DNA of 64,000 bases from an uncultured Rhizobiaceae group bacterium (GTDB lineage Bacteria > Pseudomonadota > Alphaproteobacteria > Rhizobiales > Rhizobiaceae). The notes under the pieces were generated by a model that had not been told where the DNA came from, searched no databases, and was given only the letters and a program-made list of their open reading frames with translations. The position numbers and the translations under genes were made by a program. The DNA is taken from positions 62,001 through 126,000 of the forward strand of contig CANMVS010000001.1 in NCBI GenBank assembly GCA_947501445.1, in the 5' to 3' direction. How positions within the stretch are numbered: the stretch's first letter is position 1; each line of letters begins with the position of its first letter. This document shows, piece after piece, positions 9,635 through 61,868 of the stretch.

Positions 9635-10104
9635 TGAGAACTACTTTCTTCTATTACAAGCATGGCACCTACGTCGGCTTCGGCAACCCTTGCGCCCTCG
9701 ACCTTCGCTTCGCAATGGAATTTCCAGATCGTGCCGCGTTGTTTGATTTTCTTAACGTGATACTCAACACGATCACCAGGCAGCACCGGTTTGCGAAAAC
9801 GGGCGTTGTCAATCGTCATGAAGTAGACGAGGCTGGATTTTTCGGTTTGTGTCCTTGCACAAATAGCACCCGCCGTTTGCGCCATGCCCTCAATCAGCAA
9901 GACACCCGGCATAACAGGCGTTCCCGGAAAATGCCCCATGAATTGTGGCTCGTTTGCAGTGACATTTTTAATGCCAACCGCAGAATTGTCAGCATCTATG
10001 TCAACAATTTTATCCACAAGCAGGAAGGGATAGCGATGCGGCAACAGTTCCATAATTTCAAGTAGATCAACCGTTTCCAATACTCCGGTCTTGTCGTCGC
10101 TCAT
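9631..10104 (-). CDS. fabZ: 3-hydroxyacyl-ACP dehydratase FabZ
   Basis: At 157 residues this hotdog-fold enzyme dehydrates 3-hydroxyacyl-ACP in fatty acid elongation. Conserved are [12 protein letters not shown] near the N terminus and the active-site block [20 protein letters not shown], holding the catalytic His and Glu. It overlaps lpxD upstream and lpxA downstream by four bases each, which is the standard arrangement that balances lipid A and phospholipid synthesis. Confidence 0.96.
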
Positions 10105-11159
10105 TTGCTCGCCCCCTTTTTGCCAGATTTCCCAAACGCACGTGCGTTAATTTCCGCCATGTCCTTCAAAAATGCCCGTATGGGTCGCGCTGGAATGCCA
10201 CCCCAACGGGCACCTGCCGGCACATCGCCAACAATTCCGCTCAATCCCGCAATCTGAGCACCATCACCTATCGTAATGTGTCCATTAATGCCGGCACCAC
10301 CGCCAATCATCACGCCGTCTCCAATTGTTGCGCTTCCAGATATGCCTACCATACTGACAATGACGCAGGAACGTCCGATTTTTACGTTGTGCCCGACCTG
10401 AACCAAATTATCTATTTTGGTTCCTTCCCCAATGACTGTGTCATCCAGCGCCCCACGGTCTATGGTCGTATTGGCGCCAATCTCAACATTGTCCTGAATA
10501 ATTACGCGGCCGATTTGCGCAATTTTTGTCAGCCCCGTACTTGACGGTGCATAGCCAAATCCATCCTGCCCGATCCGAACACCCGGATGAATAATCACCG
10601 AATTTCCAATCAACGCGTGCTGGATGGTGACATTTGCCGTAAGACTGCAATCTCTGCCAATGCGACAATTGGGACCGACAACAACGCCAGGCCCAACAAT
10701 GCTTCCAGATCCTACAACAGCGCCGTAGCCAATACAGGCTCCGGCCTCGATGCAAACATTGTCTTCCAGAACAGCCGTTTCGTCGATATGGGCCAATGGT
10801 GACACCCGAGCGCCACTGGTTATTCGTCCGGGTTTCAATGCATCAGGAAACAGCAACTGCGCGGCAAGTGCGAAGGTGGATTGTGGTTTTTTTGATACCA
10901 GAGCGATGCAGGCATCCGGAATCAATTCCGCCAGATCGCCGGTACATATCACTGCGGTGGCTTTCGCGTTCACCAACATTTCCGTGTGGTTTTTGGACGC
11001 TATAAAAGATAAATCACCCGGTCCTGAACGTGCCAAGGGCGCCAGGTTGCAGACACTTGCGTTGTCAGCATCACCATGAACTATCTCAGCGCCAATTGCG
11101 GCAGCAAGCTCTGAAACAGTTATTCCACTATGCGGTGAGAAAAAACGGCCATCATCCAT
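10101..11159 (-). CDS. lpxD: UDP-3-O-acylglucosamine N-acyltransferase
   Basis: LpxD adds the second hydroxyacyl chain to the 2-amino group of UDP-3-O-acyl-glucosamine. The 352-residue product has an N-terminal uridine-binding domain, then a long left-handed beta helix of hexapeptide repeats (about residues 110-300) with the catalytic-His region [10 protein letters not shown], and a C-terminal helix. It is separated from bamA by 94 bases that contain a strong hairpin and overlaps fabZ. No skp/ompH gene lies between bamA and lpxD, unlike the enterobacterial order. Confidence 0.95.
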
Positions 11160-26910: not shown

Positions 26911-27050
26911 AGCCATTTTGTGATGAAATAAAACAATATTTTGATCAGGAGCGCTTGTGCGCCGGCAGATTGACACTGTGATTGCTGGCTTGTGTGGTGA
27001 ACTCGGAAGGCTGCGTGGCATCGTTGCCGGGTAAGATCGTTGCTGCGGCT

Positions 27051-27153
27051 AAAGCGATTCAGGTTTTGACGGAATCGGCAAAACCTGAATGCGTCAACAA
27101 AATCAAAGGCCGACACCGTTGTCCCGTTTCTGACAAAACGTGAATCGGTCTAA
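27051..27153 (+). repeat. Dispersed two-hairpin repeat, copy 2
   Basis: The best-preserved copy, 103 bases. Left hairpin: TTCAGGTTTTG and CAAAACCTGAA around a 10-base loop. Centre: GTCAACAAAATCAAAGGCCG. Right: CCGTTTC and a partly matched GAATCGG around TGACAAAACGT. Confidence 0.85.
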
Positions 27154-27604: not shown

Positions 27605-27988
27605 ATGATTTCAAGATTGATTAGAACAGCACTTGCGACTTGCTTGGTGGTGGCAGGAACGACTACGGGGTCGATCTCTCATGAAAGTGTTACATGGATT
27701 CCCAACAATCTAGTCCCCGCCTTCGCCCTACCCGCTGCCCCTCCCAGCATGGTCCCTATGGTTGTCTACGTACCGGCACAACAGATGCAGCCTGCCGTGC
27801 CACCACACACACATGCACCACAGGCAGCGCAGGCAGCACAGACGATTGATGCAACGCATTGTTCAATTAACGACGTGGCTGTGCTGACACAGGATGCGCC
27901 GAGCTGTGAGAAAGCTGGTGGGGAGGTTGTTGCGGAGAGGGGCTCGTTTCACCTTGTCCTCCCATTTCCTGCCGGATCAGGGAGTTAA
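27605..27988 (+). CDS. Small exported protein of unknown function
   Basis: A 127-residue product with a signal peptide (RLIRTALATCLVVAGTTTG, cleavage probably in the following Ser/His stretch), a Pro/Met-rich segment, a His/Ala/Gln-rich patch (PPHTHAPQAAQAAQ) and two cysteines (THCSIND and PSCEKAGG) that could form a disulfide. GGAGG precedes the start. No family was recognised. It is the last plus-strand gene before the prophage and runs towards its lysis end; whether it belongs to the phage is unclear. Confidence 0.6.
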   Translation: MISRLIRTALATCLVVAGTTTGSISHESVTWIPNNLVPAFALPAAPPSMVPMVVYVPAQQMQPAVPPHTHAPQAAQAAQTIDATHCSINDVAVLTQDAPSCEKAGGEVVAERGSFHLVLPFPAGSGS

Positions 27989-28009
27989 TGATTAGAAAGG
28001 TGCTCGTGT

Positions 28010-28279
28010 TTATCGCTCAACAGCCTTCAATATCCGCTCCAGTGTCTTTGATTGCTCCTTTTGAAGCACTTCAATCCCGGTCAGGCGTTCACGTACATCG
28101 CCTGCCCGGTTTTCAATACGGTCCACACGATCCTCAATATCGTTGAGGTTTTCAGCATTGGCCGAAACAGTCGTTTGCAACGCGCCATATCCGCCAGCAG
28201 CAGCACCCAGAACGGCAAGGACCCCGAATACTGACAGAAACAATTTGAGGCTTATCCCGCCCGGTGCTGGATTGGTCAT
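28010..28279 (-). CDS. Phage membrane protein with coiled coil
   Basis: An 89-residue product with one hydrophobic segment (LFLSVFGVLAVLGAAAGGYGAL) followed by a charged heptad-like helix (NLNDIEDRVDRIENRAGDVRERL). It is the last gene of the prophage late transcript, sharing a base with the stop of the preceding gene. The layout resembles phage lysis accessory or haemolysin XhlA-like proteins, but no firm family match can be made. Confidence 0.6.
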   Translation of the reverse strand: MTNPAPGGISLKLFLSVFGVLAVLGAAAGGYGALQTTVSANAENLNDIEDRVDRIENRAGDVRERLTGIEVLQKEQSKTLERILKAVER

Positions 28280-29212: not shown

Positions 29213-29415
29213 CAGCCCGCCCCTCCACTATCAAGCAGCGCTTTCTTGGCGCGCTCAATGTCGTAGATTGCGGCGCCAGTATCTGGCAGTGAACACATGA
29301 ATGCATCGTTGCCAGCCATATCAACGCCGATCACAACAACGCGCTGGAACTTGCCGATTGCTCGCATGAGCAGGTCGTCAGGTTTGTATTCTTCAAATGG
29401 TTCTGTGTTGGTCAT
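29212..29415 (-). CDS. Small phage protein of the lysis block
   Basis: 67 residues, no signal or membrane segment, containing VVVIGVDMAGNDAFMCSLPD. Its ATG overlaps the endolysin stop (ATGA), and its stop overlaps the holin-like start, so it is translated in a chain with them. No function is recognised. Confidence 0.6.
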   Translation of the reverse strand: MTNTEPFEEYKPDDLLMRAIGKFQRVVVIGVDMAGNDAFMCSLPDTGAAIYDIERAKKALLDSGGAG

Positions 29416-30218
29416 TTGCTTTTCCCTTTGAATAGTTGGCCGATAATGCGAATGAGAGCAGCCCAGAAGCCGCCATTCCGAGTCACTGGCGCGCTTGGTG
29501 GGGTTTTGGGAGGTGTTGGTGCCGGATCGGATGTGTCGGGCTGTGGTGGCTTCGGTGTGGGGATTGGAGCCGGATCGGTTGTGATCGCTCCATTCCAAGG
29601 GGTGTCCTTGATCCGTGACCACTTCTGCAGCGCTTCCGCCATTTTTACGTGGTAATTGTTCCGGCGATACCCAGACCCATTGTAACCACCGGCAAATGCG
29701 CGACAGCTTTCTGGATCGCCGGGTTTACAGAGCCGTAATTCATCATCCAGCTTGGCGCTCAAGATGAAATTGACTGATCCCTCAAGCTGGTTTTCCTCGT
29801 CATCCATAAAGGCGCGAACCATCGATTCAACGTCTGCATATCCGGCAAGCCTGTAATTGAACCCCATGACCTGACCGAGGCCCCAGGAACAGGACAACAG
29901 CGCCGCCCGGGCATCAATTTTCATGGCGCGTGCCAGCTTTCCGTATTGAGCACTTTCCTTGCCGTACCCACCGGCACGTTTGTTGGCCAAGCCCTCATTG
30001 ATCGCTCGTTGGCGCTTGCCTGCCGCAACGTATTTGTAGAATTTGTGTCGCTCGAAAAGAATGCGTGGGCGGCCTTCACTATCAAAGCCACTGCCCCGTG
30101 TTTCAACATCAAGGAACATGTGAATATGGTCCTCACCGACGCCAAGGAGCTTGCCCAATCTCGGCAAATCAATATCGTCAAGGCGCTTTGCAGCGCCCCG
30201 GAAACCGTTCCAAGTCAT
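29412..30218 (-). CDS. Phage endolysin, N-acetylmuramidase (DUF3380) domain
   Basis: About 268 residues. The N-terminal 190 or so form an N-acetylmuramidase domain, with the probable catalytic Glu in FLDVETRGSGFD, RPRILFERHKFYKY and SWGLGQVMGFNY. A Pro/Thr-rich linker follows, then a hydrophobic and basic C-terminal tail (GFWAALIRIIGQLFKGKSK) that could be a membrane anchor or amphipathic helix. It cleaves peptidoglycan at lysis. I start it at ATG 30218 after AGGTG; a start nine codons upstream is possible. It heads the lysis block, preceded by a terminator at its 3' side region 30244-30267 that ends the upstream cargo transcript. Confidence 0.82.
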   Translation of the reverse strand: MTWNGFRGAAKRLDDIDLPRLGKLLGVGEDHIHMFLDVETRGSGFDSEGRPRILFERHKFYKYVAAGKRQRAINEGLANKRAGGYGKESAQYGKLARAMKIDARAALLSCSWGLGQVMGFNYRLAGYADVESMVRAFMDDEENQLEGSVNFILSAKLDDELRLCKPGDPESCRAFAGGYNGSGYRRNNYHVKMAEALQKWSRIKDTPWNGAITTDPAPIPTPKPPQPDTSDPAPTPPKTPPSAPVTRNGGFWAALIRIIGQLFKGKSK

Positions 30219-30243
30219 GTTTTCACCTGTGATGTTTGAATAC

Positions 30244-30267
30244 AAAAAAGGCCCCCGAAGGAGCCCC
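30244..30267 (-). terminator. Rho-independent terminator before the endolysin gene
   Basis: On the minus strand GGGGCTCC-TTCG-GGGGCC is followed by six T. It is the first of four closely related terminators between 30244 and 31192 and isolates the cargo from the lysis block. Confidence 0.8.
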
Positions 30268-30475: not shown

Positions 30476-30498
30476 AAAAAGGCCCCCATCAGGGAGCC
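30476..30498 (-). terminator. Terminator after the first lasso-leader gene
   Basis: Minus strand GGCTCCC-TGAT-GGGGGCC followed by TTTTT, 40 bases after the stop of the 44-residue peptide gene. Confidence 0.8.
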
Positions 30499-30538
30499 TC
30501 ACATTCATCGATTATAATATTACTTGGTGTGCTTGCTG

Positions 30539-30673
30539 TCATTCCGGTTTTGTATCTTGCGGCACACCTGAGATCGTTAGTATAGGCGCTTCCCCAAGTG
30601 TAGGCGCTTTCGCAGCAGTTATTTTTCGAAGGTTTCCGCGCTTGATTACAATTGGCTTTTCATATGTCTTCAC
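30539..30673 (-). CDS. Candidate ribosomal-peptide precursor with lasso-type leader (copy A)
   Basis: A 44-residue product starting (GTG) VKTYEKPIVIKRGNLRKITA. It fits the lasso-peptide leader pattern Y-x2-P-x-L/V-x3-G-x5-T exactly: Tyr4, Pro7, Val9, Gly13, Thr19. If cleavage follows residue 20, the core begins AKAPTLGE with Glu at core position 8, a position used for the macrolactam ring in known lasso peptides. A GGGGG ribosome binding stretch precedes the GTG and a strong terminator follows, so the gene is a self-contained unit. No lasso cyclase or leader peptidase gene is in the window. The leader match and core geometry are seen; lasso formation is inference. Confidence 0.6.
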   Translation of the reverse strand: MKTYEKPIVIKRGNLRKITAAKAPTLGEAPILTISGVPQDTKPE

Positions 30674-30831
30674 GCTCAACCCCCATTAAGGTACAGAATC
30701 ACTTTAGTTCACGCACAAATGAAGGTCAAATTCAGTAACAATAACTGAACATCTTTACGTTTACTTGGGGCCTTTTGCCACCATCCATGCAGCGTCCAAT
30801 TGTCTTCTGTCCACTTGTTGAATTTGGATAC

Positions 30832-30858
30832 AAAAAAGACCCCCGTTAGGGAGTCTTG
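30832..30858 (-). terminator. Terminator after the second lasso-leader gene
   Basis: Minus strand AAGACTCCC-TAAC-GGGGGTCTT with six T, about 35 bases after the stop of the 39-residue peptide gene. Confidence 0.8.
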
Positions 30859-30891
30859 ATTATTCAGTCGTATTTGAGCAGATAATGATAA

Positions 30892-31011
30892 CTAGTTATC
30901 ACCACCCAATCGCGGACGACGAAAGCCTGAGATCGGCACTTTGATTTCTTGAGCAGCGATTTTACCAATGTTTCCACGCTTGGTTACAACTGGCTTTTCA
31001 TATGTCTTCAT
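30892..31011 (-). CDS. Candidate ribosomal-peptide precursor with lasso-type leader (copy B)
   Basis: A 39-residue paralogue of the neighbouring copy, starting MKTYEKPVVTKRGNIGKIAA. Tyr4, Pro7, Val9 and Gly13 of the lasso-type leader are kept but the Thr at 19 is Ala. The C-terminal half diverges completely in sequence except for a shared ISG, and is basic (GFRRPRLGG). No Glu or Asp falls at core positions 7-9 with the same cleavage point, so it may be a different product type, a decayed copy or a regulator. It has the same GGGGG ribosome binding stretch and its own terminator. Confidence 0.55.
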   Translation of the reverse strand: MKTYEKPVVTKRGNIGKIAAQEIKVPISGFRRPRLGGDN

Positions 31012-31170
31012 GCTTAACCCCCATTAAGTTACAGAATCACTTAAATTCATGCACAAATGAAGGTAAAATTCAGTAACAACAACTGAACATCTTAACGTCT
31101 ACTTGGGGTCTTTTGCCACCGTCCATGTAGTGTGCATCTGTCTTCTGTCTGCTTGTTGAGTTTGCATACC

Positions 31171-31192
31171 AAAAGGGCCCCGTTAGGGAGCT
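31171..31192 (-). terminator. Terminator after the methyltransferase gene
   Basis: Minus strand AGCTCCC-TAAC-GGGGCCC with TTTT, weaker than its three relatives. It lies about 35 bases after the FkbM-type gene stop. Confidence 0.6.
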
Positions 31193-31224: not shown

Positions 31225-32022
31225 TTACCGCCACCAGATTTCAGGCATAACAATGTCGTCCAGATCAGGCACATTCCTTGTATCAAGCGCATGTGGAAGG
31301 TTAAACCTCAAGCCATTCGCCAATTTGGGAACGCGATCATTTCTAATGTATGTGACCTCAAAGGTACGTGGAACCTGGATGCCATGCTTTGATGCAATGC
31401 CACAAAGGTTGTTTGGATGGACATGGGCTATAGAAAAAACGCTATGAATTTTGTCGAAGATCGCTCTTATTAACGGCAAACTCCTGCGTTGCAAAATTTT
31501 CTCCAGGTCATGAAACTCAATTACCATAATACGAAATTGCTGCAGCACATCTATCGTAGTCTCTGCAAGCACATCATATTCTGCACTTTCTATATCCATC
31601 TGCAAAATGGCATTTTGAGCACGTTGCCCGTCCAGTTTATTCTTCATCCAAGAGGTCAGGGTCAAAAAGTCTTCGTTGTCTATTGCACCCAAATATTTTT
31701 TCTCAAAATCAAAAAACTCGTTTTCAAACGGTGGACCATCAACACTCGCATCAGCCATAAACGATTTTATTTGATAATTTTCTGCCAACCATTTTTCAAA
31801 ACCGGCAGTTACATCGACTCCCGGCGAGAAACAGCAATCAACGTCTTGCAAGTCGTCCGGAATCAGATATCCGCCATCTCCAGTACTTCCAGCGCGTATC
31901 AAGTCAACGGACACAATTGCGCTCCTAAAGGAATCTATCAGTGCCAGAACCTCTTGCTTTGGCGCATACTTTCGATAACTCACCTTCGGTTTAAGTATTT
32001 TCTCAAGAAGCGGTCTACTCAA
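31225..32022 (-). CDS. FkbM-family methyltransferase-like protein
   Basis: About 265 residues with a Rossmann-type SAM methyltransferase pattern: GSTGDGGYLIPDDL, CCFSPGVDVTAGFEKWLA (motif I region), MDIESAEYDVLAE (motif close to the FkbM M/LDIEGAE signature) and IMVIEFHDLE. The family O-methylates sugars or small molecules. The best start is TTG 32022, with GGAG eight bases upstream; no ATG fits. It is AT-richer than the phage structural genes and lies as cargo beside a glycosyltransferase and the lasso-leader cassettes. Confidence 0.7.
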   Translation of the reverse strand: MSRPLLEKILKPKVSYRKYAPKQEVLALIDSFRSAIVSVDLIRAGSTGDGGYLIPDDLQDVDCCFSPGVDVTAGFEKWLAENYQIKSFMADASVDGPPFENEFFDFEKKYLGAIDNEDFLTLTSWMKNKLDGQRAQNAILQMDIESAEYDVLAETTIDVLQQFRIMVIEFHDLEKILQRRSLPLIRAIFDKIHSVFSIAHVHPNNLCGIASKHGIQVPRTFEVTYIRNDRVPKLANGLRFNLPHALDTRNVPDLDDIVMPEIWWR

Positions 32023-32095
32023 TTTTGATACTCCATGAGCGCTGCGGACATTAAACCACAAAATGATGGTTATTGATGCTGGAAAGTAGCGATAA

Positions 32096-32926
32096 TTATC
32101 TTGCGGTTGCAGTTGGTAATTTCTCGGGAAGCTTGTGCCATTTGGACAAAGGTTTGTGCCAGAACGGCCCATAGTAGACTTTCCCCAAAGAAAGCAGCGC
32201 AGCGATGTAACTGAATGAACTTTTTGCTGTTATCAGGCAATCCGCTGCCACCAAACCCGAAATGGTCGCCAATACATCAGAATTCAGCTCAAACTCACAG
32301 TTATCTGGTAACCCGTCAAAATTACTTTCTACGCCCTCAGAAAATATCCTGACCTTTGCGTTTGGATGACGTCGTTGAACGTAATCAATCTTTGCTGCAA
32401 CGACCGCGTTGGTTTCAAAGCGATTAAGGTTTTGTGAACCGGAAACGTCACCTCTGCGTACGTGTACTGCGATCACAGCACTATCATATGTCCTGATGGG
32501 AAGATTTAGATTTTCTCTAATTTTACCAATTATATTCAAGTATTTATTTGTGTTTCTGTCTGCAAATCGGTGAAAACATGTCTGTGCTACTACGGCAGGC
32601 TGTCCCTGGTAGCCATCACAAATTGTCATCCCGTCAACAATCGGGACATTTTCTGGTGGAGCGACACAATCCGCTCCAAGATTAAACCCAGTTTCCCACT
32701 CGCTCAAACCTTCCCCCAAAGGCGTATGGTAGTAAGGAATGCGAGAAACGTGACTAAATAAAAGCGCAGACAGAATTGCATGCACCTGCGCGCCACCTCG
32801 ATCATGTCTTTTGGAACATGTAATCCCGATAATATTTTTCCGATATTTTTTGTTTGCCAATATGCGCGAGAAATCTCCTGCTTCTTGGTATCTGAGTAGT
32901 CTTTTTTGGGACACAAGCGGGAACAA
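32096..32926 (-). CDS. Glycosyltransferase, GT11/fucosyltransferase-like
   Basis: A 276-residue protein with the donor-binding motif HVRRGDV (residues about 153-159) and a C-terminal AADCLITAKSSFSYIAALLSLG, both typical of alpha-1,2-fucosyltransferase-like enzymes (GT11 and related). The N-terminal GGAQVHAILSALLFSHVSRIPYYH also fits. Donor and acceptor are unknown. It begins with TTG 32926 behind AGGGG. It is followed by the methyltransferase, and the pair may modify a cell-surface glycan, as phage-carried serotype-converting genes do. Confidence 0.65.
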   Translation of the reverse strand: MFPLVSQKRLLRYQEAGDFSRILANKKYRKNIIGITCSKRHDRGGAQVHAILSALLFSHVSRIPYYHTPLGEGLSEWETGFNLGADCVAPPENVPIVDGMTICDGYQGQPAVVAQTCFHRFADRNTNKYLNIIGKIRENLNLPIRTYDSAVIAVHVRRGDVSGSQNLNRFETNAVVAAKIDYVQRRHPNAKVRIFSEGVESNFDGLPDNCEFELNSDVLATISGLVAADCLITAKSSFSYIAALLSLGKVYYGPFWHKPLSKWHKLPEKLPTATAR

Positions 32927-33086
32927 AATCTACCCCTTCTCAAATTCTCAAATTTACTCTTTGCAACCTGATAGTGCCCGCTACGCTTGAATGCAACAAA
33001 AAAGCAGATGAAATGGAGGGATCGGATCAATGAATGTACTTGGCTCCCAACCAAGCAGTGTCGTACCCACTGAGGCTGGGCGGTCC

Positions 33087-33458
33087 TTATTTAAGGTTCA
33101 CTGCCGCCATCCATTCAGTATCGATTTGCGCAGGGGTTTTCCCCAGTGGAGCCACCAGGGACACAAGCAACGGGTGATCACGTCGATATGACGTTGCGTG
33201 CCGGAATCTGCACCTGGCCGTTATCCGCTCGTTTTGGTCAGATTCAACCGTGTCAATTGCTGCGTCCACCTTGGCCTCGCCCAGGCCGAGTTGCTCAAGG
33301 AACGTGAAGAACTGGAACGAATTTAACGGGTGCTTTGTTGGATCCAGTTTTGCAGCTTTCAAGGTTGCTTGGATTGCATCCGATTCTGCTTTGCGGGTTG
33401 CCTCTTGATCAGCAGTCATTGTGACTTTTTTACCATTCACTATTTTATGTTCTGGCAT
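33087..33458 (-). CDS. Phage protein following the tail fibre gene
   Basis: About 123 residues beginning MPEHKIVNGKKVTMTADQEA, mostly helical and charged. It starts two bases after the tail fibre stop, a place often taken by tail fibre assembly or chaperone proteins; the sequence itself is not diagnostic. ATG 33458 is chosen because the longer frame would lie inside the fibre gene. Between it and the glycosyltransferase are about 160 non-coding bases. Confidence 0.6.
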   Translation of the reverse strand: MPEHKIVNGKKVTMTADQEATRKAESDAIQATLKAAKLDPTKHPLNSFQFFTFLEQLGLGEAKVDAAIDTVESDQNERITARCRFRHATSYRRDHPLLVSLVAPLGKTPAQIDTEWMAAVNLK

Positions 33459-37756: not shown

Positions 37757-39697
37757 CTAAGGGGAAACGTCTGGCTGATCAAATATAACGCCCAAAGAGG
37801 AAAGCTGTGTTTGCGCACCTCTCAATTCATCATTTTTCTTCGAATTGTAGTATCCGTGTGAATAGACGGGCAGCATTTTCCCTTCCTGAGAATATTCCAG
37901 ATTAAGCGCCTCCAGAAGTCGCTCCAATGATGCCATTTGTTTGTCTGTGAGCTCTCTGGATGTATAATTGCCCAGGAAGGAAATGCTGATATTGTCAGTG
38001 TTATGTGATATGGCATGAGCCCCCTCATATTTCAGATCTCTGCCCTGATAGATTGTCCCATCTTTGCCGATCATAAAATCATAGCCGACATCAGCTTTGT
38101 TCATTGCATCAGACACAAAAGGTAACAACCTGATGCTACGCACCACGATGTTCTCTTTGTTTCTGTGCCGTTTCTCCACACCTTGTGGCGTCGTATACCA
38201 ACCTGAATGGTGCACCGTTATTTTGTTATAGGGTACATTTGGTGTCCGGTCGGGTTCCAGTGGATCGCGGCCTGTAAGGTCAGGCGGGTATTGCGCCCAT
38301 TCGTCTCTTTTGACGATCTCGACGCCATGGAAGTCAAATGTTTTTGAGGGTTTTACCGGTTGCCTGATATCACCCGCGACATCAAGAGCATTGGTTTCGT
38401 AGCCAACCGGGATCGCACCGAATTGCCCGGGATAACGTGCTGACGATACCCGTCCCACCGGAACTCGCCGTCCTTTGATTTCGCTCAGGTCATCACCGTA
38501 GTAGGGTTGCTGCTGGTACGAACGCGGCCCGTTTTGATTCACAAGGTTGTGATGCCCACGTTGAGAGGATTGTTTGCCCGGCGGACCTGATTGTGCCTCC
38601 ACATTATGAAGCAAGCCGGGAGCCTGCTGCCCCTCCCGGCCCCCGGTTTTTACGGATTTACCGTCAGGCATCAACTGGTTTTCTCCAAGGCCAAACAATG
38701 AACCGTAGTCAACCATGCGGATACCATTTTCATTCTTCAAAACAGCATCAGGACGCTTTTTCTCTACTTCCTGTGCCATCACACCGGTATGTTTGGGAGC
38801 ATCAGCAGGTTCGTCCTTGTAGCGATATTCATAGAGTTTGTGTCCCTCGAGTTTACCCACCGGTTTAATGTCTTTTTTAACACGCCGATCTGAAAAAGCC
38901 GGGCTGCTGATAATACTCGCACCAAGTCCAAACAAACCGCCCAGAAGGCCTTGTTTCTGCGCCTGCTCCTGTTGCCAGATGCCCAGGCGCTGCGCGTATT
39001 CATTGTTGATGATGCCAGCCACATCCGTTGTCGCAATGTTTGGCATACTGGTGTTGACATAGTTGGGCTGGCTGACCTGCGAACCGGACAGCAGGGCCGA
39101 TATCTCGTTGACCTTCTGGTTGCGCTCGCCCGATATCGAGTTTTGCGCCTGACCATACATATTGCCATAAAGATTATCGCGTGCATTGGAACGGTTATCA
39201 CTGAACTCGCTCATTGCCCGTGTGTATGCATCTGATCCGAGCTTGATCCCCTGATTGGACAATTGCGTTTCATAGTCCGATTTCTGATTGTTCCACTGTT
39301 TGTCAAAGTCATCCATATGGTGGGTGTTGATATAGTTTTGGACATTCTCGGTTGACAGATCGATGGGCGTGGCAAGGTGGTCTCTCAACTGGCCGGATTG
39401 TTCATTGGCAAGACCGGCAAGGTTAAATTGCGCGCTGTCCGTTTCATCCTTGATGGCCTGTTGATTGTCGGAAAGCGTTTGTGTGGCCGTAAACCGGGGT
39501 ATCTCATAGGACTTGCCCGTATAGGGATCATTCCAGGTATAAGTGTCCGTCTGGTCATAGGTCAGCGAACCGTCTGGCGTTACCTGATTGACATTGCCCA
39601 AAAAAGCATTGGCAACAGCCGTGCCGACATTGGTGGATGTGGACGCTGCAGAGGTTTCCCTGGGATCAGGCGGCGGCGGTGCTTTTGACTTGCCCAT
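37757..39697 (-). CDS. Tail protein with internal S74-type chaperone domain and C-terminal amidase domain
   Basis: 646 residues in three parts. Residues 1-265 are a Gln/Asn/Ser-rich structural region. Residues about 269-340 match the start of an intramolecular chaperone (peptidase S74) domain: SDRRVKKDIKPVG, LYEYRYKDE and HTGVMAQEV. Residues about 490-645 resemble an N-acetylmuramoyl-L-alanine amidase (PGRP type): KITVHHSGW (His496 and His497), GYDFMIGKDGTIYQGRD, GAHAISHNTDNISISFLGNY. The usual CPG zinc ligand near the end is not seen. S74 domains normally end a protein and cut themselves off before the Ser; here the cut would release an amidase. Confidence 0.72.
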   Translation of the reverse strand: MGKSKAPPPPDPRETSAASTSTNVGTAVANAFLGNVNQVTPDGSLTYDQTDTYTWNDPYTGKSYEIPRFTATQTLSDNQQAIKDETDSAQFNLAGLANEQSGQLRDHLATPIDLSTENVQNYINTHHMDDFDKQWNNQKSDYETQLSNQGIKLGSDAYTRAMSEFSDNRSNARDNLYGNMYGQAQNSISGERNQKVNEISALLSGSQVSQPNYVNTSMPNIATTDVAGIINNEYAQRLGIWQQEQAQKQGLLGGLFGLGASIISSPAFSDRRVKKDIKPVGKLEGHKLYEYRYKDEPADAPKHTGVMAQEVEKKRPDAVLKNENGIRMVDYGSLFGLGENQLMPDGKSVKTGGREGQQAPGLLHNVEAQSGPPGKQSSQRGHHNLVNQNGPRSYQQQPYYGDDLSEIKGRRVPVGRVSSARYPGQFGAIPVGYETNALDVAGDIRQPVKPSKTFDFHGVEIVKRDEWAQYPPDLTGRDPLEPDRTPNVPYNKITVHHSGWYTTPQGVEKRHRNKENIVVRSIRLLPFVSDAMNKADVGYDFMIGKDGTIYQGRDLKYEGAHAISHNTDNISISFLGNYTSRELTDKQMASLERLLEALNLEYSQEGKMLPVYSHGYYNSKKNDELRGAQTQLSSLGVIFDQPDVSP

Positions 39698-40151
39698 GTG
39701 ATTTCACCTCGAATTTGTTTGATTTCCAATCGTCATCCGTAAGCGTATTGATCAGCTCATCCTCATGACGCCCCCGAAGCCGGGGAATGCGGTAGCTTTT
39801 GAAGCCATACGATTTCATGATGCGGCTCATGGCCGTGTTGCCCGGCGCAGTGCGCAAAACCACAATTTGCGCCCCGATCTGCTCAAAACAATAGGCAAAC
39901 ATTGCATGCAGCACTTTGCGTGTGAGCCAGCGCTTGCTGGTTGATGCCGCTGACATTTCAATGGCGCCACTGTCAGGCTGCCAGTTGTGAAACACGACAA
40001 CAGCAATCAGCCGGCCATGGTGTGAAACACCCATTGTGGTGAAGTTCTCGAAGCTTTTGTCTTGTCCTGGCCAAATCTGATTGGCACACCATTCAGCCAT
40101 TTCCCTATTGGTGGCGCGGTTGAACCTGCCGCCCCAAATGATCTTGCACAT
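39666..40151 (-). CDS. GNAT-like phage protein
   Basis: 161 residues that resemble the GNAT acetyltransferase proteins placed between tail tube and tail protein genes in several short-tailed phages: AEWCANQIWPGQDKSFENFTTMGV, LIAVVVFHNW, IEMSAAS, KVLHAMFAYCFEQIG and GFKSYRIPRLRGRHEDELI. Substrate unknown. It shares one base with the upstream gene's stop and overlaps the 646-residue tail protein gene by 32 bases. Confidence 0.65.
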   Translation of the reverse strand: MCKIIWGGRFNRATNREMAEWCANQIWPGQDKSFENFTTMGVSHHGRLIAVVVFHNWQPDSGAIEMSAASTSKRWLTRKVLHAMFAYCFEQIGAQIVVLRTAPGNTAMSRIMKSYGFKSYRIPRLRGRHEDELINTLTDDDWKSNKFEVKSHGQVKSTAAA

Positions 40152-50945: not shown

Positions 50946-51049
50946 AAAGCAATTCGGATTTTGACGGAATCGGCAAAACCTGAATGCATCAACAAAAATC
51001 AAAGGCCGACACCGCTATCCCGTTTCTGACAAAACGCGAAACGGTCTAA
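50946..51049 (+). repeat. Dispersed two-hairpin repeat, copy 3
   Basis: 104 bases, close to copy 2 across the whole length, with the GACGGAATCGGCAAAACC hairpin arm, the CATCAACAAAAATCAAAGG centre and the CCGTTTC-GAAACGG right hairpin. It stands at the 3' side of the second Gly-Gly peptide gene. Confidence 0.85.
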
Positions 51050-51549: not shown

Positions 51550-51778
51550 CAGGCGAATGCCGGTTGATTTCCCTTTGATTCTTGAAGCAACCTGTTACAG
51601 CAGGCGGTTTCACCATTTGGAGCAAGCCAGGTTTTGACGGAATAGGCAAAACCTGTGTGTATCAACAAAATCAAAGGCCGACACCGTTGTCCCGTTTCTG
51701 ACAAAACGTGAAACGGTATAGGGTTGGCCGCAGACCTGTTGGCAAATGGGTCATCCGTCGCAAGGTCATACTCATCAA
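51550..51778 (-). pseudogene. Decayed copy of the portal 5' end, interrupted by repeat copy 4
   Basis: Two pieces match the intact portal gene. One at about 51550-51610 shares GGTTGATTTCCCT and AACA/GCAGGC-type blocks with portal bases near 49650-49695; one at about 51721-51778 matches the first 70 bases of the portal gene (GGTCATACTCATCAATTATAA against GGTCATGTTCATCAATCATAA). Repeat copy 4 sits between them. Confidence 0.6.
51621..51720 (+). repeat. Dispersed two-hairpin repeat, copy 4
   Basis: 100 bases with a perfect left stem (AGGTTTTG and CAAAACCT around ACGGAATAGG) and a right stem CCGTTTC and GAAACGG. It interrupts the decayed portal copy, which shows that the element can insert. Confidence 0.85.
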
Positions 51779-61774: not shown

Positions 61775-61868
61775 GGCAAAACCGTCAACGCATTGCCGAC
61801 CTGAATGCATCAACAAAATCAAAGGCCGACACCGTTGTCCCGGTTCTGACAAAACGTGAGACGGTCTG
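61775..61868 (+). repeat. Dispersed two-hairpin repeat, copy 5
   Basis: Core and right hairpin (CATCAACAAAATCAAAGGCCG to GTGAGACGG) match the other copies. In the left arm 17 extra bases separate GGCAAAACC from CTGAATGCATC. It lies between the caspase-like and ClpP-fold genes. Confidence 0.75.

Follow-up and report, generated by a model that had tools for sequence, protein, structure and literature searches.

Two short tandem genes on the minus strand of the window (the whole stretch of 64,000 nucleotides of Rhizobiaceae DNA analysed here) encode peptides with lasso-type leaders, and we consider it likely that they are prophage-carried precursors of a cyclase-free RiPP system, matured in trans to linear, probably phosphorylated peptides. 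As we picture the pathway, a discrete RRE encoded on another contig (C18) would bind the leader at Tyr(-17), Pro(-14) and a hydrophobic residue at -12; the HprK-like kinase of the same locus would phosphorylate a Ser or Thr of the core, whose phosphate the NTP_transf_5 protein may then decorate; and a B2 cysteine peptidase would cut after the x-Ala border. Since no enzyme able to link the N-terminus thus freed to a side chain was found, the product would stay linear; it may be acylated, in the window's species, by the acyl ligase, ACP and GNAT encoded nearby. The scattered precursors of this genome, two of them in prophage cassettes and one in an apparent decayed sister prophage, would all be served in trans by one maturation locus.

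Precursor genes and their cassettes

Both leader-peptide genes are real. The initial annotation described a tandem pair with the leader spacing Y-x2-P-x-V-x3-G, each gene having its own ribosome binding stretch and terminator, and this description holds: the two open reading frames lie in tandem on the minus strand, both leaders have that spacing, a GGGGG stretch stands upstream of each start codon, and a terminator-like hairpin follows each gene. The features of the cassette region are:

30892-31011, minus strand: precursor P_A, 39 aa, ATG start; leader residues 1-20 ending IAA; core QEIKVPISGFRRPRLGGDN
30539-30673, minus strand: precursor P_B, 44 aa, GTG start; leader residues 1-20 ending ITA; core AKAPTLGEAPILTISGVPQDTKPE
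30952-31181, minus strand: upstream copy of a 230-nt duplicated unit (leader codons 1-20 and 5' region, into the preceding terminator)
30614-30843, minus strand: downstream copy of the unit, 86% identical to the upstream copy
30836-30857, minus strand: terminator-like hairpin after P_A
30479-30500, minus strand: terminator-like hairpin after P_B
31177-31191, minus strand: weaker terminator-like hairpin before the P_A cassette

The GTG of P_B at 30673 is in register with the ATG of P_A, whereas the open reading frame listing begins at a TTG at 30679 and gives 46 aa. The 1.2-kb cassette region has six terminator-like matches, of which two are nested within others, where shuffled sequences have 1.4 on average. 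The two cassettes form a direct repeat of 230 nt with 86% identity and a spacing of 338, and the core-side end of the repeat is exactly the codon of the predicted last leader residue: P_A and P_B are a tandem duplication in which DNA similarity ends at the predicted leader/core border.

The genome contains two further copies. P_A as sole query retrieved P_B at 7e-4 and the other two at 1e-8 and 1e-6, and a four-copy profile (which contains each copy that it retrieves) matched P_A, P_B, C18:65458-65577 and C19:120004-120117, all at 2.5e-20 or better, with the next match at 1.9. With 51 of 60 nt identical between the leaders of P_A and P_B, the proposed conservation of leaders is borne out; the accompanying statement that the C-terminal halves differ fully goes too far, as I-S-G followed by F or V is common to the cores of all four copies. 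The lasso RiPP family leader peptide model NF033521, an annotation of the leader only that is silent on the product, has a cut-off of 19 bits, which P_B (20.8) and the C19 copy (21.1) pass; P_A gave no match even at E<=10, and the C18 copy was also without a match. These further copies, the prophage setting and the enzymes elsewhere in the genome had all been overlooked in the initial annotation.

A putative maturation locus on another contig

Neither a cyclase nor a leader protease had been seen near the two genes, and reliance on enzymes in trans had been suggested. Both points stand up: genome-wide searches with PqqD, Asn_synthase and Transglut_core3 gave no match inside the window, and an RRE and B2 locus with the fourth precursor is found on C18, a contig different from that of the window in a draft assembly of 110 contigs (99.18% complete). 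The C18 precursor lies about 3 to 6 kb from the genes for the RRE, kinase, NTP_transf_5 protein and B2, and 0.6 kb from a ligase gene. The PqqD-type RRE (44 bits, cut-off 23.4) adjoins the B2 peptidase (NF033537, 50.8 bits, cut-off 33); the NTP_transf_5 protein scores 78.5 bits (cut-off 31.2) and the HprK-like kinase 23 bits, under Pfam's 33.3. Closer to the precursor stand genes for an AMP-binding ligase and a GNAT, as well as one that matches ACP weakly (19.4 of 20.8 bits). By these matches the locus appears to encode an RRE, B2, kinase, NTP_transf_5 protein, acyl ligase, GNAT and ACP, without an AsnB-type cyclase. The B1 RRE and B2 expected of a lasso-peptide genome are present here, in trans.

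For the kinase, 22 proteins (from the best 80 of 111 loci described below) were aligned, and His142, the P-loop residues and Asp182-Asp183 are invariant among them. The published account of BsfK gives its motif as His-Gly-Lys-Ser-Asp-Asp and reports that it phosphorylates core Ser3, a reaction accelerated by its RRE (PMC10368454); in pseudomycoidin, a kinase and a nucleotidyltransferase are reported to phosphorylate and glycosylate a Ser (PMC8498205, PMC9266682). Measured against that account, the present kinases are like BsfK in their invariant His, P-loop and Asp-Asp motif, and unlike it in that His142 lies 23 residues before the P-loop Lys instead of 21 and that the first P-loop Gly of BsfK is Ala in at least 90% of the 22 aligned. 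In a profile search against solved structures, HprK chains matched at 5.6e-5, the match being confined to the P-loop region. Membership of the kinase in HprK_rel_A was considered and rejected (31.7 bits against a cut-off of 200).

Co-occurrence of precursors and enzymes among relatives

Narrow queries for relatives of these precursors return the genome of origin: P_A was found in 1 of 61 genomes and profile A1 in 1 of 385 genomes of the class, the own genome each time. Of 297 genomes sampled from the family, 21 match the B2 of C18 when it is used as query. A wider profile, A2, was built from 40 peptides of 12 genomes, its rows chosen by pattern and eye from loci near B2, and by this profile 24 of 394 family genomes are precursor-positive (of one search run at E<=10, with numerous chance matches, low E-values alone were taken into account). 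B2 is present in 23 of these 24, namely 20 in the 297-genome sample and additionally G001, G720 and G725; the exception, G562, is without B2 and has a weak precursor match (8.6e-4) with an internal stop. When the 12 source genomes of A2 are excluded, 8 of 9 B2-positive genomes are precursor-positive as against 1 of 276 B2-negative ones (Fisher 8e-14, a value that presumes that the genomes of the B2 sample are also in the 394-genome precursor sample and that ignores kinship). Two genomes of the same genus (G002, G003) have neither precursor nor B2 at the thresholds used, and one genome with a weak B2 match, G492, is not precursor-positive and has an AsnB-type motif nearby.

Among 20 neighbourhoods fetched and searched by tblastn, the RRE was found in 16, the kinase in 19 and NTP_transf_5 in 17, one (L058) having B2 only; an SGGxDS motif occurs in a single neighbourhood, L063, which has the weakest B2 match. 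A second set, the named loci, consists of the best 80 of 111 B2 relatives with flanks of up to 8 kb, several of them cut by contig ends; most are from Mesorhizobium, others from Hoeflea poritis, Nitratireductor sp. XY-223, Oricola indica and MAGs, and few are from outside Rhizobiaceae. In these best 80 of 111, the RRE, B2 and kinase occur together in all 80 and NTP_transf_5 in 79, an SGGxDS cyclase-motif ORF occurs in none within the flanks of up to 8 kb, and a precursor lies within the fetched flanks in only 38.

The same counts bear on the possibility that acylation is the defining modification, the ligase, ACP and GNAT acylating the N-terminus freed by B2 and phosphorylation being minor. 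The ligase, GNAT and ACP genes do adjoin the RRE and B2 in the window's species, and they occur in 8 of the 20 neighbourhoods, including the four of the window's genus (L044-L047). Yet the trio is present in only 7 of the 80 named loci (best 80 of 111), every one of which has the kinase, and a Ser or Thr in every short core (see below) suits a kinase better, which leaves acylation as an unlikely principal modification. Phosphorylated linear products, with acylation as a possible addition in the window's species, remain our preferred reading.

Leader register and core composition

The precursor family has a largely constant leader geometry. With the border Ala counted as -1, the Pro-to-Ala spacing of 138 of 158 unique precursors gives Pro the position -14 and Tyr -17, and position -12 is hydrophobic (L, V, I, F, M and A counted) in 152 of 156, the border being undefinable in 2 of the 158 peptides (2 of 117 in an earlier set). 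The register reported for RRE binding by lasso leaders is Tyr(-17), Pro(-14), Leu(-12) (PMC10368454). Conservation of a Y-P-G pattern in homologues had been put forward as a check on the initial annotation: the Y and P are kept across the wider A2 family, and the G is not. The leader/core border reads TA in 83 of 115 precursors, so that the family has the YxxPx[L/V/I] leader with Thr at -2 that is used to recognise lasso precursors; P_B, ending ITA, conforms, and P_A, ending IAA, is itself without Thr(-2).

The cores vary, as the proposed diversification would have it, yet they have a common composition. Cores longer than 45 aa (three per set) were excluded, and the counts are descriptive, the cores being counted as they stand although they may be related to one another. 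All 153 cores contain Ser or Thr (Ser in 142). Ser occurs at core positions 3-6 in 118 of the 153, against a shuffled mean of 74.5 and a maximum of 92 in 1000 shuffles; SG is found in 66 (shuffled mean 26.2), and [PVI]SG in 39 (shuffled mean 8.0, maximum 17 in 500). Several Mesorhizobium cores among L161-L236 carry collagen-like GPSGPxGPxG runs.

Cyclases in this assembly and in relatives

Among the possibilities raised initially was a cyclase-independent use of the leader, together with a genome-wide search for lasso B and C proteins and RRE domains. That search places the RRE and B2 on C18 and yields no C cyclase: the lasso cyclase model NF033535 has no match in this draft assembly at E<=0.001, and the Asn_synthase model matches three proteins only, which from their sequences we take to be MnmA-, ArgG- and TilS-like. 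That the draft yielded no lasso cyclase of the AsnB type agrees with cyclase-independent use. A full-length Asn_synthase protein is present in 11 of 11 relatives examined and missing from this assembly (G000), by loss or through an assembly gap, and a cyclase could be missing likewise.

When NF033535, a narrow model, was compared with 24 genomes, some match at E<=0.001 was obtained in 21 (G000, G545 and G626 had none), and matches above the cut-off in 5 of the 24, all Mesorhizobium, in which the true lasso cyclase lies 9-29 kb from B2. Among seven scanned full-length Asn_synthase proteins of relatives, one scores as lasso cyclase and the other six as asparagine synthase. Beside the cyclase of G630 and of G683 stands a canonical precursor (GGGG...D, with the D at core 9); the ORFs of the G630 cyclase stretch, read by eye, include an NTP_transf_5-like protein, the cyclase and an ABC transporter, with no second B1/B2, and the family B2 search finds a single B2 in that genome. 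In those Mesorhizobium the RRE/B2 pair may be shared, serving a lasso peptide too. Because these cyclases lie near B2, "cyclase-free" is true of the locus and not of all genomes; by NF033535 the term applies to 18 of 23 B2-positive genomes (G492 apart). One Mesorhizobium stretch (L301, 5142-12672) holds a canonical lasso cluster, with a D9 precursor, cyclase, ABC transporter and, by eye, an NTP_transf_5-like gene; it is without visible B1/B2 of its own and lies 9.4 kb from the RRE/B2 locus.

Might P_A and P_B nevertheless be true lasso precursors, their ring closed in trans by a cyclase that the assembly or the models missed? The leader, RRE and B2 are all of lasso type, five Mesorhizobium genomes have a bona fide cyclase at the distances just given, the assembly is a draft, and the P_B core, with Ala1 and Glu8, alone could form an eight-residue ring. 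Against this stand the NF033535 result for this assembly, the identities of its three Asn_synthase matches, and the restriction of cyclases over the cut-off to 5 of 24 genomes. The cores themselves also speak against it: ring-acceptor Asp or Glu at core positions 7-9 occurs in 20 of 153, which is chance level (shuffled mean 18.8), 94 of the 153 have no Asp or Glu at all, and P_A has none at 7-9. With no detected cyclase and ring acceptors at chance, we reject a lasso product as the first reading; a knotted product is not supported for P_A and P_B, and lasso peptides proper are quite improbable here.

Relation to known systems

The linear, phosphorylated reading has a described parallel in the Linear Polyphosphorylated Peptides (LPP) of Popov et al. 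2026 (PMC13381572), which are linear and phosphorylated at Ser3; according to the authors they occur in Bacillota only, and a cluster holds one to three precursors. As far as that description extends, LPP and the present system have in common a discrete RRE, an HprK-like kinase, an NTP transferase and no macrolactam cyclase, together with variable C-termini, a YxxP leader motif and a Ser near the core start (Ser3 being the LPP phosphosite). RRE, kinase and NTP transferase are indeed found together on C18, and by motif a macrolactam cyclase occurs in 0 of 80 clusters (best 80 of 111) and, in the smaller set, in L063 only (1 of 20).

The differences, judged from the same description, are several. 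The LPP peptidase is an archaeal-type signal peptidase, whereas a lasso B2 stands in the present locus. LPP clusters have an MsbA-like transporter; here no exporter-sized ABC gene lies near, by motif only, in any of the 80 named loci (best 80 of 111), four of which have a smaller ABC ORF, and among 21 other loci the single such ORF (L049) is part of a neighbouring canonical lasso cluster. LPP hosts are Bacillota, whereas the hosts here are mostly Rhizobiaceae, with dispersed precursors that in the window's genome are in part prophage-borne. Of the LPP leader consensus YxxPxVLxHQxIxFETxxS, A2 matches by eye YxxPx[V/L] only. The terms "rhizob", "alphaproteobacter", "dispersed" and "prophage" are all absent from the main text of PMC13381572. 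Judged by its genes, the window's system seems to work like LPP, but we do not file it as LPP.

Phosphorylated lasso peptides (Bsf, PMC10368454; paeninodin and pseudomycoidin, PMC8498205, PMC9266682), as there described, share the RRE, B2 and HprK-like kinase, and a nucleotidyltransferase (in Bsf and pseudomycoidin) and the Tyr(-17), Pro(-14), Leu(-12) register are as here. What sets them apart is their cyclase C, which in the window's species was looked for and not found, and, for Bsf, a ring between Gly1 and Asp8. None of the literature matches listed, mainly freely accessible papers, names a cyclase-free system of the B2 type from Rhizobiaceae, and the passages of PMC12710340 and PMC11118758 consulted describe none either.

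Prophage carriage

The P_A and P_B cassettes sit in a prophage, because they lie downstream of genes for tail fibre, head, portal and terminase and beside an endolysin gene:

29412-30245, minus strand: prophage endolysin, downstream of the cassettes (phrog_1224, 5.2e-68)
31225-32926, minus strand: FkbM-like methyltransferase and glycosyltransferase family 11 genes, upstream of the cassettes
33461-53519, minus strand: prophage tail, head and packaging genes (tail fibre, major head protein, portal, terminase large subunit)

The FkbM-like match has 20.7 bits, under Pfam's 22.7, and the glycosyltransferase family 11 match 25.3 bits (cut-off 23.9). No integrase is among the 20 window proteins compared with PHROGs, and no tRNA was found within the window. 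An acyl-CoA N-acyltransferase gene of the prophage (39666-40151) belongs to a PHROG classed as moron.

The C19 copy lies near a contig end, and its flanks are colinear with the window: on that contig (L013), 9413-9852 corresponds to window 27730-28162 (75%), 9929-10190 to the P_B cassette (69%) and 10198-10421 to window 33085-33314 (72%). By this alignment the region looks like a decayed sister prophage with a single cassette at the same site. Two minor features recur in both regions. A family of small secreted-looking proteins marked by CSINDVAVLTQ, without a PHROG match, lies near both precursor sites (window 27605-27988; L013 8660-9740). A dispersed repeat of about 70-105 bp is found at window 27048-27152, 50948-51048, 51620-51722 and 61799-61867, these copies being 85-90% identical to the one at L013 1525-1629.

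Prophage carriage of precursors is shown in the window's genome only. P_A compared with phage and plasmid collections gave nothing at E<=1; the fetched stretches of 21 viral contigs with endolysin relatives contain no precursor of at least 10 bits; and the Pfam matches in the flanks of ten plus five dispersed precursor sites include no phage genes. A candidate on viral contig L043 was rejected on reading, as a 121-aa phage protein that begins MKTYEKP by chance.

A conserved leader, variable cores and prophage location would also fit copies that act as decoys or regulators competing for the host RRE, with no phage-coded core matured. The ISG kept in all four cores argues against this, as does the leader-plus-Ser-core pattern shared by the arrays and dispersed copies of other genomes, and such a role is highly improbable. 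That P_A and P_B are unexpressed relics of phage-moved copies, a reading to which the lack of an integrase among the 20 proteins compared and the decayed look of the C19 sister lend themselves, is very doubtful, given the intact frames, ribosome-binding stretches and terminators of both.

Dispersal of precursors

The separation of precursors from enzymes that our preferred reading, maturation in trans, supposes has counterparts in other genomes, in which precursor matches at E<=0.001 were compared with the positions of B2. The genome of G630 is a single contig, and each of its four precursors is separated from B2 by over 1 Mb, also when the contig is treated as a circle; the four of G005 share a contig with B2 but stand over 1.7 Mb from it; and in G626 all 17 are on contigs other than that of B2. 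In G565, G590 and G647, precursor arrays lie beside the enzymes. It is therefore common for precursors to lie far from the enzymes, as in G630, G005 and G626, and their separation in the window's genome is no peculiarity of the assembly. Prochlorosin precursors are dispersed as well. According to the published description, prochlorosins share with the present system many precursors and one solitary promiscuous enzyme (ProcM), and differ in being lanthipeptides with another leader family, in cyanobacteria (PMC10783134).

On a wider and more tentative view, which we hold with somewhat less than even confidence, Rhizobiaceae would possess a library of short precursors spread genome-wide and partly shuffled by phages, which one cyclase-free lasso-type maturase converts to linear peptides that are phosphorylated, decorated and in some lineages acylated, with temperate phages contributing cores of their own to the host's line. 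If the system is as proposed, the use of lasso leader recognition and the B2 peptidase would extend, outside Bacillota, to linear peptides; this could account for the orphan "lasso leader" annotations of these bacteria, and the window would provide a natural example of one maturation locus serving precursors that are dispersed and carried by phages. A direct test becomes possible, of one RRE/kinase/B2 set against dozens of natural cores.

The surroundings of dispersed precursors also recur. On three contigs of one genome (L150, L151, L152) they adjoin outer-membrane beta-barrel genes, and in L137 and L143 patatin genes. Two genomes (L148 4794-5111; L154 4790-5113) encode a Peptidase_S74 (chaperone of endosialidase) domain to which a leader of the precursor type is fused.
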